This document shows positions 32,039-63,319 of a DNA stretch of 64,000 bases, piece by piece (within the stretch, counting starts at the first letter, position 1; every line of letters begins with the position of its first letter). Origin of the DNA: Marinobacter sp. (GTDB lineage Bacteria; Pseudomonadota; Gammaproteobacteria; Pseudomonadales; Oleiphilaceae). The stretch covers positions 121,184 through 185,183 of the forward strand of contig JACIZI010000003.1 of NCBI GenBank assembly GCA_014359475.1. Reading direction: 5' to 3'. Both the position numbers and the translations under genes were made by a program. The notes under the pieces were generated by a model that was not told the origin of the DNA, made no database searches, and saw nothing but the letters and a program-made list of their open reading frames with translations.

Positions 32039-32215
32039 ATGCTCTATTGGGCCATTGTTTGTCTGGTCATCGCAATCATCGCCGGCATCCTCGGTTTTGG
32101 CGGCATTGCGGGAACAGCCGCCGGATTCGCTAAAATACTGTTTTTCATCTTCCTGGTGCTGCTGGTGGTTTCACTGGTGATTAATGTACTCAGAGGTAAA
32201 GGGCCGAAGGTCTAG
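32039..32215 (+). CDS. DUF1328 small membrane protein (58 aa)
   Basis: 58 residues: [19 protein letters not shown], then [18 protein letters not shown] and a second hydrophobic segment ending [13 protein letters not shown]. This is the two-helix DUF1328 (YtjA) family of inner-membrane proteins, often stress-induced. A strong GGGAGGACAGG lies upstream of the ATG. The TAG stop at 32213-32215 is the first part of the palindromic repeat copy that follows. Confidence 0.92.
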
Positions 32216-32307
32216 CCTGTCGGACTTACCGCCAATCTGCTGCGCCGGTGGAAAAATGGCTCATATTTCCCTCCTTGCTCGCGACGATTGCTAAAGTCCT
32301 ACAGGCT
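32213..32307. repeat. palindromic repeat, copy A (internally deleted)
   Basis: The arms AGCCTGTCGGACTTA (from 32214) and its near-complement TAAAGTCCTACAGGCT (to 32307) enclose sequence that matches the reverse complement of copy B (62193-62362). Relative to copy B, 64 bases are missing between two TTTCCC direct repeats, one of which remains. Copy A forms the entire space between the convergent DUF1328 and chemoreceptor genes and contains or supplies the stop codons of both. Confidence 0.85.
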
Positions 32308-34464
32308 ACTGGTGTCCCGTTTGGTTAATTCGCTGACCTGGAACTGGCCGGTCAGGTATTCCAGTTTAGTCGCCGAGGCGTGGGTCATCTCCGAACTGCT
32401 TGCAAGGCCGGCTATCACGTTAGTCATAAAGCCCACACTCTCGGCGACACCGCTGGTTTGTTTACTCTGGACTGCATTGGTCTCGGCAATACCGGAGATG
32501 GCTCTGAACAGCTTGTCGACCATATGATGGAGTTCGACATTGTCGTCCGATGCCGCCCGGACCTGAGCCAGACGCGCCTCCATTTCCGACATCCCCTCTT
32601 CCATGGTCGTCACCGCTCTCTGAGTCTCTTCCCTGACCCGGTGCAACCGTTCATCAATCTCTTTCGTTGCCTGCGCTGTTCGACTCGCCAATTGCCGTAC
32701 TTCATCGGCCACCACCGCGAATCCGCGGCCGGCGTCACCAGCCCGCGCGGCCTCAATGGCTGCGTTAAGGGCCAGCAGGTTGGTCTGATCCGCCACCCCG
32801 TTGATCATCTCTGCGGCTTTACCAATCTCCTCGGTCCGATCATTCGCTGCCCGGATGCCCTCCGCTGAGCGTCCGATAACATCACGGATGCTCTGGGTTT
32901 CCTGATTGACCCGTGCGAACTGCTCCCGAGCCCGATTAACCATCTCTTCCATGCTTATGCGCATCTCCTGCGCGGTGGTGGAGGCGTTACCGATCTCTTT
33001 TTGTTGCAGTTCTGCTCCCTCGAGCATCTGTTCGATATCACTGATCACTCGACGAATCCGCTCATCTGCCTGTCGGTTGTGCTCTACAAGGTGTTCGCTC
33101 GCCGAGCGCGACTCCCCTGCCAGACCAATAACCTGTCCCACCATTCCGTCCAGTGTGTCCAGAAAACTGTTCATCCAGCGCGCCAGGTCACCAGTCTCAT
33201 CCCGTTGGGTTTTATTCACGTCGAGGCGCTGGCGCAGGTTGCCGCCGCCCTCCGCAATGTTCCGTATCACACCCGCCAGCGACGCCAGGCTTTCTGCCAA
33301 GGGCTTGGCGGAGCTCAAGCGAAACAGTACCAGGCCCAACAAAGCCACCACTCCATTTACCGTCGCCCCTAACCATAACGGCGCCCCACTGGCAGACACA
33401 GCCAGATTTGCCACCCAGATCAGCGCCAGCAAAACGCCGAGCCTTGCCGTCAAACGGTAACTGACCGAGCGCTTGCGATAGACTTCCTCCAGATCCCCTT
33501 CACACATCATTCCCCAACGATCAGGCGAGCCCGGCAACTGAAAAGTCACACCCTTGCCAATCACGGGGATATGGCGATAGTCGGAATAACCCGGATACTT
33601 GACATAGAGGTTCTCGCCATGAGCAATGGTCTCACGTACGCCGGGATGCAACTGCCCCGTTGCAGGATCGGTAAAACGTATTTCAAATTCGGTATGCTCA
33701 CGGATACGCACTGTACCAAAACCGGTTCGAATACCCTCTTTGAGATTATCACCGTGACTGAAGGTCGCATCCTCAAAACGGGACCGGGAAAGCGCGACCC
33801 CGGTGCGTATTGCCGGATCGAAACGGCTGTCGATCATGAAAAGATAGTTATCCCCGGATTCCTCGAAAATATGTCCGGCCTCGCGCTGGATCAGGTCGCT
33901 CATGACATCGTTGGGGACCCGGGCACAGACAGCAGCGGGCCGGCCGTTCGCCAGGGTAACCGGCTGATAGAACATCAACGTCACATCATCGTGAAACTTC
34001 GAGGTAGTGGCACCGAGCTTCAAGGTAACCGGGTCGCTGTACGGCCCATGGAGAAAGCGCTCTTTCAATCCGCGCTGGACGGCCCCCGGCATCAGGTCAG
34101 CCATCCCAGGCCGTCCAGGCACTGTCGACATAATGACATTACCCTCAACACCGATCACAAACAGCTCCGAGATTTCCCGAAGGCGGGCCATGGCGGAGGC
34201 CAGTACTTCCCCGATGGCGGACTCCTCCACTCCATCAAGCCTTGTGGCTATACCATCAAGAAATGCCCACTTGGCATTGGCCCAGGCAAGCAGCGCCTCT
34301 CGACGTGTTTTTGCGATACTTTCGAAGATTTCTTCATTAGTGGCGTACTGCTGTCGATTCAAAAAACACGACCAGCTCATTCTTAACTTGCCCATGGCGC
34401 CAAACCAGGGAAGCCAACGCCGTTCAGCGGCAGAAAGGTTCATGGAATCACTGCGTAGAGTCAT
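32299..34464 (-). CDS. methyl-accepting chemotaxis protein with N-terminal Cache-like sensor
   Basis: 721 residues. Residues 1-330 hold a Cache-like sensor ([49 protein letters not shown]), two adjacent transmembrane helices follow (about 340-385), then a HAMP-like linker and the signalling domain with the hairpin tip [20 protein letters not shown] then [20 protein letters not shown] near 560. No transmembrane helix precedes the sensor, so the sensor appears cytoplasmic, unlike classical receptors. No CheB/CheR-binding pentapeptide is seen at the C-terminus. GAGGA precedes the ATG. The last codons (SSL and stop) lie in repeat copy A. Confidence 0.9.
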
Positions 34465-54896: not shown

Positions 54897-54934
54897 GGCG
54901 CAGTGGATTAGCGTTAAGTCCGACAGGCTGCTAG
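54897..54934. repeat. palindromic repeat, copy C (single arm)
   Basis: 38 bases that match the right end of copy B at 36 positions, including TTAAGTCCGACAGGCTGCTA. The other arm is missing. The arm contains the TAG stop codon (54931-54933 on the minus strand) of the truncated yqeY gene. Confidence 0.8.
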
Positions 54935-61204: not shown

Positions 61205-62197
61205 ATGGACATGAACCGGCGGACGTCGAGGCGCATAGCCGCCATCACCATCAGCCTGCTGCTGGCGGTGATGCTGAGCGGCTGCGCCAGCCGGCCTCCC
61301 TGGCCCGCCGCTGCCGAACAATCCGGGCTGGACCTGGAGCAGAGGGTCATCCTCGACCAGGTCCCGTTTTACGCCCAGGAGCTCTACCAGTGCGGACCCG
61401 CCTCCCTCGCCATGATGCTGAATGCCCAGGGGCTCTCAACCAGACCCGAGCAGCTCAAAGACCTCGTCTATATCCCCGAGCGCGAAGGCAGCCTTCAGGT
61501 GGAACTGGTCGCCGCCGGCCGCAGTCACGGCATGGTGGTCTATCAACTCGATGGCTCCCTGCGGAGCCTGCTCAGCGAAGTCGCGGCAGGTCATCCCGTC
61601 ATGGTTATGCAGAACCTGAGATTCAGCTGGTGGCCGCAATGGCACTTCGCGGTGGTCACCGGTTTTGATCGGCAAAAGCGCAACGTCATTCTCAATACCG
61701 ACACCAGAGAGCGCCATGAAGAGGCAGTGGAAGTGTTCATGGCCACCTGGGGCCGGGCCAACAACTGGGCAGTGGTCATGCTGCCACCGACGCAACTGCC
61801 GGCCACCGCCGATCCTATCGACTACCTGATGGCCGTCAACGACCTGGAAACAACGGCCCACATCAAGACGGCACGACAGGCCTACAGCACCGCAGAGAAT
61901 GCCTGGCCCGATCAGCCCGCCGCCATCCTGGGGCAGGGCAATATCGCCTGGCGGGCCGGCAACTGGCCGGAAGCCACCCGGCACTACCTGAGACTCACCA
62001 CCAGGTTTCCCGGCCTCGCCGCCGGCTGGAACAACCTCGCCCAGTCACTGGCCAAACAGGGCTGTGAGCCCGCCGCACAAACCGCCGCCTGGTGCGCCCA
62101 CGGCCTCAAGCCCGATCGATTCAGCCCGGATCTGCCAGACATGCCCGCAAGCGTTGCGGCCGAATGCCCTTCGGTAACCTGCCCCCTTCCTGACTAG
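61205..62197 (+). CDS. PA2778 family C39-like cysteine peptidase lipoprotein
   Basis: 330 residues. Lipobox LSGC with Cys27. C39-like domain: ELYQCGPASLAMMLNAQGLS near 60 (nucleophile Cys63) and QWHFAVVTGFD near 145 with the catalytic His. A C-terminal TPR-like region (AILGQGNIAWRAGNWPEATR then HYLRLTTRFPGLAAGWNNLA near 240-280). Paired with the PA2779 protein. Its TAG stop (62195-62197) is the first part of the palindromic repeat copy B. Confidence 0.9.
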   Translation: MDMNRRTSRRIAAITISLLLAVMLSGCASRPPWPAAAEQSGLDLEQRVILDQVPFYAQELYQCGPASLAMMLNAQGLSTRPEQLKDLVYIPEREGSLQVELVAAGRSHGMVVYQLDGSLRSLLSEVAAGHPVMVMQNLRFSWWPQWHFAVVTGFDRQKRNVILNTDTRERHEEAVEVFMATWGRANNWAVVMLPPTQLPATADPIDYLMAVNDLETTAHIKTARQAYSTAENAWPDQPAAILGQGNIAWRAGNWPEATRHYLRLTTRFPGLAAGWNNLAQSLAKQGCEPAAQTAAWCAHGLKPDRFSPDLPDMPASVAAECPSVTCPLPD

Positions 62198-62362
62198 CAG
62201 CCTGTCGGACTTAAGCAATCGTCGCGAGCAAGGTGGGAAAGCGAGCGCAGATTTTCTGGATTTTGAGGCGCATAGTGGTTCTATGCAACGAAAAAGCCGG
62301 GAAATATGAGCCGTTTTCCCACCGGCGCAGTAGATTAGCCTTAAGTCCGACAGGCTGCTAGT
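62193..62362. repeat. palindromic repeat, copy B (complete, 170 bp)
   Basis: Perfect 22-bp terminal inverted repeats (62193-62214 and 62341-62362) enclose a second inverted pair, GGTGGGAAA (62232-62240) and TTTCCCACC (62315-62323), and a central hairpin GCATAG/CTATGC (62270-62286). The whole could form a nested cruciform or RNA hairpin. No transposase and no target duplication are seen. Copies A and C share its ends. On the left it supplies the stop of the PA2778-type gene; on the right it abuts the cut end of a vapB remnant. Confidence 0.9.
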
Positions 62363-62363
62363 G

Positions 62364-62588
62364 TCCCAAAAAGAAGCCGTTGAGCAAAGCCTGAAACTTC
62401 TGGTCCAGCTAAGCAAGCGGTTGGAGATTCGAAAACTGCGAGGCAATATCAGCATCACGATCAGAAAACTGCCGACGTGATCATCGCGACGCTCTGCATA
62501 GAGAAGGAAGTATCCCTGCTGTTTCTGGGTCGCGACTTTACCCCCTTTTGTTGATCACCTTGGACTTCGTGCCCTGAGCGAAACATAA
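62364..62588 (+). pseudogene. vapBC toxin-antitoxin remnant
   Basis: A vapB 3' part (SQKEAVEQSLKLLVQLSKRL then EIRKLRGNI) is joined directly to a vapC 3' part. The vapC part appears in shifted frames: TADVIIATLCIEKEVSLLFL, GRDFTPF, then VDHLGLRALSET with a TAA at 62586-62588. The vapB start, and the vapC N-terminus with its first acidic residues, are gone, and two one-base frame changes occur. It lies between repeat copy B and the intact parDE pair. Confidence 0.75.
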
Positions 62589-62681
62589 CGCTTGCAATAA
62601 CTCCGCGCTTGTCGCGTGGATTGCATTGTTATGCCGCCTGGCCCAAAATATACCAATTCTTGGTACTTGAGAGGTGGCGCC

Positions 62682-62921
62682 ATGCAAAAAAACACCAGCA
62701 TCACTCTAGGCCAACATTTTGATGCTTTCATCGCGGAACAGCTCAAAAATGGCCGATACAGCTCAACCAGCGAAGTCGTTCGTGCAGGGTTGCGCCTGCT
62801 TGAAGAGTCCGAAACCCGCCTGACTACGCTCCGCAAACTGCTTAAGGACGGCGAGGACAGTGGTTTTGAAGACTACTCCTATGACTCATTCATTCGCGAA
62901 CTGGACAACGAAGAGCGCTGA
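62682..62921 (+). CDS. parD: ParD-like antitoxin
   Basis: 79 residues. Ribbon-helix-helix N-terminus: NTSITLGQHFDAFIAEQLKN then GRYSSTSEVVRAGLRLLEES. The C-terminal acidic tail (EDSGFEDYSYDSFIRELDNE) is the part that covers the toxin. GAGGTGG lies upstream of the ATG. Its stop overlaps the parE start by one base (TGATG), typical for toxin-antitoxin pairs. It would bind and repress its own promoter. Confidence 0.93.
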   Translation: MQKNTSITLGQHFDAFIAEQLKNGRYSSTSEVVRAGLRLLEESETRLTTLRKLLKDGEDSGFEDYSYDSFIRELDNEER

Positions 62922-63217
62922 TGTCGAATTTCAAGCTTTCCAGGAAGGCCAAAGCTGACCTCAAATCTATTGCACTGCACACGGAGCGTGAATGGGGCCG
63001 GGATCAGCGAAACCACTACATTTTTCAGTTCGACCAGTGCTTCCACCTACTGGGTGAAAATCCCAACCTGAGGCAATCCTGCGATGAGATCAGCCCGGGC
63101 TACCGACAGTACCCTCAGGGAAGTCACATCATCTTTTATCGGCTAGCCACCGACGGTGTTGTTGAAATTGTTCGCAATCTACACAAACGCATGTTGCCTG
63201 AAGGGCATCTGCTTTAG
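62921..63217 (+). CDS. parE: ParE-like toxin (RelE/ParE superfamily)
   Basis: 98 residues. KLSRKAKADLKSIALHTERE then WGRDQRNHYIFQFDQCFHLL and RQSCDEISPGYRQYPQGSHI are the ParE fold; VEIVRNLHKRMLP at the end keeps the conserved Arg and the hydrophobic tail. ParE toxins poison DNA gyrase; the specific target here is not tested. Translated after parD by overlap. Confidence 0.93.
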   Translation: MSNFKLSRKAKADLKSIALHTEREWGRDQRNHYIFQFDQCFHLLGENPNLRQSCDEISPGYRQYPQGSHIIFYRLATDGVVEIVRNLHKRMLPEGHLL

Positions 63218-63319
63218 GGCATAACGAGGCCGTAGAGAAACCCAAAAATTTGCAGGAGCAACCAGTGATCTTGGCGCTTTCGTTACCGGTGATATTGCTT
63301 TTCACTTCCTTACCGATAC

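Follow-up and report, generated by a model that had tools for sequence, protein, structure and literature searches.

A CTAG-inserted IS1182-type MITE in Marinobacter with a 160-nt core whose hairpin shape is probably under selection as RNA

A 160-bp palindrome that abuts the stop codon of an intact Marinobacter gene is probably a MITE mobilised by IS1182-family transposases, with a structured core of 160 nt whose hairpin RNA shape is under selection. MITEs are usually viewed as decaying deletion products without content of their own. Unlike such ordinary deletion-derived elements, the family described here carries, as its sequences read, a structured core of 160 nt. The wider reading is that of a mobile structured RNA family, that is, a 160-nt hairpin that is a CTAG-targeting IS1182 passenger in several proteobacterial classes, keeps its fold by compensatory change, sometimes exchanges its ends and needs its RNA for success; towards this we lean, if only slightly. 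Should it hold, it would follow that a DNA transposon this small can rely on an RNA that is conserved in shape across classes and separable from the ends. The element would also constitute a directly testable system, in which strand, loops and the pairs to be disrupted and then re-formed have been specified, and it would explain a class of palindromes met at gene ends.

The element and its copies

The window, by which we mean the whole analysed stretch of 64,000 nucleotides, contains the following features.

61205-62197, + strand: intact host gene, PA2778 family C39-like cysteine peptidase (NF033920, 338.5 bits, cut-off 150), the natural end of which abuts the element
62194-62197: left CTAG flank, a 4-bp target copy; the TAG inside is the upstream gene's stop codon
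62198-62357, + strand being the better-folding (RNA-like) strand: mobile element, a 160-bp quasi-palindrome (covariance model R1, 155.5 bits, 1-161 of 161)
62198-62213, + strand: left terminal inverted repeat CAGCCTGTCGGACTTA, 16 bp, common to IS1182-family elements of congeners
62261-62294, + strand: apical part TTTTGAGGCGCATAG-loop-CTATGCAACGAAAA, the family's best conserved inner segment
62342-62357, - strand: right terminal inverted repeat
62358-62361: right CTAG flank, the second 4-bp target copy
32213-32308, - strand: second copy, a 96-bp internally deleted derivative (R1, 63.5 bits), probably the one called copy A in an earlier, sequence-only reading of the window
54913-54930, - strand: third copy, truncated, at a predicted gene stop; one terminal repeat, a portion of the right arm and a single CTAG flank remain

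The existence of the palindrome at 62193-62362 is confirmed, and chance does not account for it. The + strand of the element forms a single long hairpin of -99.1 kcal/mol, against -50.2 (sd 4.0) in 200 shuffles (z -12.4, none as low), and the - strand folds at -82.4 kcal/mol. The sequence-only reading had drawn an element of 170 bp with perfect 22-bp ends and a second inner inverted pair. The inner pair is indeed present (12 bp, 62232-62243 and 62312-62323, 92%), and so is the terminal palindrome, the arms of which are perfect over 23 bp rather than 22 (62193-62215 with 62340-62362). The extent has to be narrowed, in that the element proper occupies the 160 bp from 62198 to 62357, while the remainder consists of the CTAG flanks and one outermost base pair, 62193/62362, that falls outside the element and matches by chance. 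These flanks also represent a target duplication, where none had been thought visible. The largest ORF within the element is 42 aa and no transposase gene lies inside; short and with perfect terminal repeats, it has the make-up of a MITE. Among the identities first considered, the non-autonomous mobile element is the one that holds, given many dispersed copies, CTAG on both sides, terminal inverted repeats and the lack of an internal transposase gene.

A search of the genome with 62193-62362, the check originally proposed, returned near-full-length copies at 19 places or more: 19 matches span 165 or more of the 170 query positions, and 18 of these have an identity of at least 95%. The 16-bp terminal repeat, allowing up to two mismatches, occurs 49 times forward and 58 times reverse, compared with 5 and 3 occurrences of a reversed control pattern, and by our own count 18 contig ends of this assembly of 85 contigs break off inside a copy. 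Shorter forms of about 55-97 bp are also present and look like internal deletions of the element, and a 95-bp derivative is found in a Marinobacter zhanjiangensis record (NZ_BMXV01000005.1).

Gene ends and genomic neighbourhood

The TAG of the PA2778-type gene was correctly placed at 62195-62197 from the start, within the left CTAG. The proposal that the element supplies this stop codon gives way to a simpler account. Homologues in four genomes (G069, G118, G016 and G090) terminate within a few residues of the same place, the last codons being CCC GAC TAA in G016 and CCT GAC TAG in the window gene; given this near agreement of the four ends, the simplest reading is that the TAG belongs to the gene and lies inside the CTAG target. 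The element would thus have inserted into the CTAG that holds this stop, which is why the gene could remain intact.

Placement relative to genes was surveyed in this genome with a home-made gene finder at 89 junctions, corresponding to 58 sites by hand count. Of these junctions, 35 face a gene 3' end and 45 a gene 5' end, with eight under a predicted gene and one without a call. The exact fit at gene ends, once regarded as the unusual part, is therefore not borne out as a preference for 3' ends, and the gene-end idea fails with it, CTAG sites that contain a stop excepted. At about 11 of the 58 hand-counted sites the CTAG contains or abuts a stop, and at three further sites a reading frame enters the repeat and stops 17 nt inside. 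In a 400-kb contig, 61 of 76 CTAG sites are inside predicted genes, two of the 76 touch a repeat copy, and six of the 21 that lie outside genes or at a stop overlap a stop, so that about 11 of 58 is no excess. The apparent fit arises because the target is CTAG, which can contain a TAG stop.

Orientation to neighbouring genes is likewise unbiased over 129 sites (tandem sense 42 and antisense 31, p 0.24; convergent 26, divergent 30), and a 3'-UTR role is therefore unsupported. A sense bias in this genome, counted by eye as 11 tandem sense against three antisense sites, is gone in this wider set. On the junction and orientation surveys, a gene-end function of the element is rejected by gene context. 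The suggestion of a terminator-like structure that ends both flanking transcripts fares no better: a scan of 61900-62700 found a single terminator-like site, outside the element and at chance level, so that the element itself does not show the GC-rich stem and following T run of an intrinsic terminator, and because parD and parE to the right lie on the + strand like the left gene, the element is not the shared end of two convergent transcripts. A scan of the element region revealed no promoter-like site. As for a REP/BIME-type repeat, members of this class are palindromes of 20-40 bp that bear a GTAG or CGTC tag and are linked to a RAYT transposase (see also PMC3733652), and neither the size of 160 bp nor the CTAG flanks of the element fit.

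To the right of the element, a ParD/ParE toxin-antitoxin pair occupies 62682-62921 and 62921-63217 on the + strand, in a block that is conserved at 77-94% in about 25 Marinobacter genomes and has sharp borders near 62585-62605 and 63226. Just upstream lies a palindrome of the TAACG...GTTATGC type, which resembles an integron attC site, and the block (window 62585-63226) may be a gene cassette. In genome G034, the counterparts of 62365-62450 and 62452-62596 are separated by about 300 bp, and 62365-62596 reads by eye like a candidate vapC/PIN-type toxin gene with an internal deletion.

Target site and IS1182 transposases

In a set of 136 sites drawn from many genomes, both flanks of the element read CTAG at 74, one flank at 36 and neither at 26, and flank conservation stops sharply at 4 bp. 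Neighbouring elements have one CTAG in common at L293, L335 and L243 and, in this genome, on contig C25 (L083), which is what one would predict if every insertion adds one copy of CTAG; at L293 and L243, the adjacent elements carry different classes of terminal repeat.

The ends link these elements to the IS1182 family. Specifically, the CAGCCTG end bounds IS1182-family transposase ORFs in Marinobacter congeners at L094 (1,800 bp), where the gene is split across two reading frames, and L095 (1,493 bp), both of which score below the NF033551 whole-protein cut-off of 270 (149.5 and 204.3 for L094, 193.2 for L095). The flanks of the L095 copy are CCAG/CTGG. The repeat is accompanied by CTAG at seven more loci (L096-L102), where the inward sequence is similar in six and diverges in L099. 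IS1182 ORFs are furthermore bounded by GAGTCTG-class ends at L412 and by GAGGCTGTCCGAG-class ends at L403, which are the only two with element-class ends among 32 IS1182 loci scanned; the carrier genomes G183, G191 and G310 hold complete IS1182 copies with other ends (L400, L402, L404, L405). L403 is flanked by ATAG/CTAT, not CTAG. On the evidence of L094, L095, L403 and L412, ends and target of the element equal those of an autonomous IS1182 element, as in an IS1182 MITE. Around the L403 copy (in G195) there is also a 10-bp inverted flank, CCACCTATAG on the left and CTATAGGTGG on the right, reminiscent of the stem-loops targeted by IS1272.

Two models searched at E 0.001 detected no IS1182 transposase in the 85 contigs of this genome, and the partner may be lost, absent from the assembly, or elsewhere. 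Because no partner was found in the same genome, any claim of current activity is lowered, though partners need not persist. Compared by blastn with 11 IS1182 loci, the element matches over the terminal 15-17 bp only, inner matches being 12 bp long (E 0.19-0.27), and with no more than its termini in common it is not a simple deletion product of an IS1182 partner. Co-occurrence over 398 genomes is weak and non-significant (IS1182 is present in 30 of 51 carriers and in 169 of the 347 genomes without the element, p 0.23; the counts were made by eye on two lists, on the premise that both searches drew one genome sample). BLAST with 15 query proteins found five transposases beside the at least 118 loci that match the CTAG-plus-repeat pattern, where many contigs break near the repeat.

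A fold conserved across genomes

The exact 20-mer of this pattern occurs in at least 118 stretches, in records of beta-, gamma-, alpha- and deltaproteobacteria, Verrucomicrobia and others. Many paired elements among the matches listed measure 159-161 bp despite very different inner sequence, and by our own count 28 of these loci match R1 at 80 bits or more. Among 18 representatives clustered at less than 85% identity, pairs are on average 72% identical, with terminal repeats included and one of them (L164) mis-oriented. In alignment A2, L164, whose motif score was tied, was reversed beforehand, and L065 was kept though poorly aligned.

When 20 elements are aligned, 90.7% of cells are paired in the single-hairpin structure, against 75.8% in shuffles, and changes have occurred on both sides of 34 of the 54 pairs. 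The covariation score is 0.468, compared with 0.194 for shuffled alignments (0 of 500 as high). When the partner is slid by one column, pairing falls to 47-49%, and slides of one to three columns score at most 0.193. Compensatory change, the hallmark sought for a structured RNA, thus exceeds both the shuffled and the slid controls, in statistics that are computed without phylogeny.

A covariance model built from the aligned elements finds the family in 13 of 124 Marinobacter genomes and, in a phylum-wide sample of 398 genomes, in 51. Of those 51, 42 belong to one family (f58) of another class, whose genomes measure 1.3-3.1 Mb; at least seven copies each were scored in 13 of these 42, and the true burden there may be high. 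The length is 157-161 nt in 102 of 103 model matches, after removal of two of 105 outside 150-170 nt, a constancy that is inflated by the preference of the model search for full-length matches, since derivatives of 22-117 bp exist. Rfam 15 gave no family at gathering score in positions 61900-62700 of the window or at 26 loci with other copies, where the nine matches listed in one search were all below gathering, including mir-576 (36.6 bits against 99) inside the L233 element. A plasmid search with the window's copy gave no match, whereas two divergent copies as queries hit one place, unannotated, on a Pseudomonas plasmid; searches of E. coli and phage DNA for the element returned no match.

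Other palindromes have the same ends. At L320, L321, L112, L103 and L081 they are 22-74 bp long and resemble stepwise deletion products of the long hairpin. Different palindrome types of 69-241 bp with the same ends and CTAG flanks occur in betaproteobacteria (L168, L182, L183, L237), Chromatiaceae (L170, L201, L232) and Opitutaceae (L180, L187, L202, L240). Because these match the 160-nt model weakly or not at all (40 bits at most), this kind of end serves several passengers.

The core, in turn, is found with three classes of terminal repeat. Among 104 elements the ends are CAGCCTG in 23, GAGTCTG in 49, GAGCCTG in nine, GAGGCTGTCCGAG in 20 and other in three, and the Pseudomonas plasmid copy has a core 88% identical to that of CAGCCTG-class elements but ends of GAGGCTGTCC. 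Judged from these combinations, core and ends can be separated, and this speaks for the core being retained in its own right. Of 30 inner columns conserved at 85% or more, 14 are unpaired and eight lie in the tip stem; the conserved motifs are GTAGCGAG with GCAGTAGAT, TTGAG together with a TGG motif, and, surrounding the tip, TTTGAGGC-ATAG / CTAT-AACGA. Averaged over all columns, conservation of loops (0.68) is barely above that of inner pairs (0.66).

One strand folds better than the other

With elements oriented from sequence motifs alone, energies unused, RNA of the forward strand folds more stably in 50 of 51 clusters formed at less than 85% identity (mean -14.4 kcal/mol) and in 26 of 27 formed at less than 75%; the clusters are related by ancestry and the hits partly selected by the model, so the 50 of 51 do not amount to 51 independent events. 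The one exception among the 18 representatives in an early strand comparison was L164, the mis-oriented element. Counted singly, 103 of 104 elements have one sign, with a mean strand difference of -9.8 kcal per 100 nt, whereas control palindromes with the same ends and no strong core match differ by an unsigned 0.2-6.2 kcal per 100 nt (10 measurements at eight loci). At column pairs chosen by Watson-Crick pairing, and therefore neutrally as to strand, G-U exceeds A-C by 104 to 39 in the 51 clusters and by 60 to 26 in the 27. Such a bias would fit RNA, or one chosen single strand of DNA, and points to selection on the fold of one strand, most simply as RNA.

Alternative explanations and proposed mechanism

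The best rival reads the hairpin at the level of DNA: the element would be an ordinary IS1182-type MITE, its palindrome acting only as a cruciform or single strand that is cut or targeted by the transposase, with the strand bias a by-product of which strand is single. Since IS1182 transposases can recognise DNA stem-loops, such a reason for the palindrome is possible; the family members IS1272 and TnSha1 target and delete stem-loops (PMC5678879 and PMC4923244, each as far as the text was available), the part of PMC3852290 that was accessible lists in a table a 160-bp IS1182 MITE from an archaeon, with repeats of 4 bp, and DNA folding parameters also favour the forward strand, in 16 of 18 representatives by a mean of 5.3 kcal/mol. 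A cruciform, however, shows both strands at once, so that a G-T on one is an A-C on the other, and predicts no consistent winner, which the near-uniform sign across clusters contradicts. Other palindromes with the same ends also differ less between strands, and the core is retained when the ends change. We regard the DNA-only account as unlikely, yet as deserving serious attention.

Two further explanations carry much less weight. Near-perfect palindromes are known to be corrected by template switching between arms, and complementarity could then stem from mutation rather than selection, as some copies in this genome with the identical change in both arms (for instance L007) would suggest. Such copying would erase mismatches too, yet unpaired motif positions are conserved family-wide, and it would not make G-U commoner than A-C on one strand; we consider it improbable. 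Even less credible, to the point of being nearly dismissed, is the idea of a host-serving transcription terminator or REP/BIME-type repeat located at the ends of genes, for which the stop codons abutted in this genome speak at first sight, and against which stand the missing terminator-like site, the 45 junctions that face gene 5' ends, the random orientation to genes and the frequency of stops at available CTAG sites.

In the preferred model of a passenger with a selected RNA shape, IS1182-family transposases would recognise the terminal repeats, move the element in trans and insert it at CTAG, and we infer the same mover for the local copies. Because no promoter-like site was seen, we propose that the forward strand is transcribed by read-through from flanking genes and yields a long hairpin RNA, the shape of which would be selected. 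Its role may lie in the element's own spread or tolerance, for example through protein binding or by limiting damage to the host transcript. Given the random orientation to genes and the lack of a promoter-like site, the likeliest beneficiary is the element itself, rather than the host by way of a general 3'-UTR device.

Comparison with known systems

Parts of this picture are already known, as judged from the available portions of the papers cited here: stem-loop transcripts from MITEs (PMC10969869) and IS1182 MITEs, including the 160-bp archaeal one (PMC3852290). A non-exhaustive literature search found no report of this fold or its conservation, no paper that gives the letters of the 16-mer terminal repeat, and none on RNA in an IS1182 element; hairpin MITEs of Thiomargarita have been described, with IS1182 unmentioned in the accessible part of PMC4853749.

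The closest parallels by description are the IS1182 MITEs of Methanosarcina acetivorans, which are likewise non-autonomous with an IS1182 partner (ISMac2; Table 4 of PMC3852290), one of them with 160 bp, 14 copies, 26-bp repeats and 4-bp direct repeats. They differ in being archaeal, and fold, strand bias and wide conservation are not described in the portion of that paper at hand; the likeness noted is one of description. MITEPsy1 of Pseudomonas syringae also makes a 4-bp duplication at CTAG (or YTAA), and this 100-nt element was shown to move, but it has other terminal repeats and derives from ISPsy2, listed as IS5 family (PMC3189936, in part). IS1272 and TnSha1 have a transposase of the same IS1182 family and a link to stem-loop DNA, but their stem-loop targets are deleted and no duplication arises, whereas the element described here has CTAG on both sides (PMC5678879, PMC4923244, available portions). 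ISPsy36 is an IS1182 element that also uses a 4-bp palindromic target, which is GGCC rather than CTAG, and unlike our element it is autonomous (PMC8027508, in part). Finally, Correia/NEMIS and ERIC are MITEs with stem-loop transcripts, acted on by RNase III (Correia) and RNase E (ERIC); they are other elements of other sizes, for which the available part of PMC10969869 describes neither compensatory evolution across classes nor IS1182.
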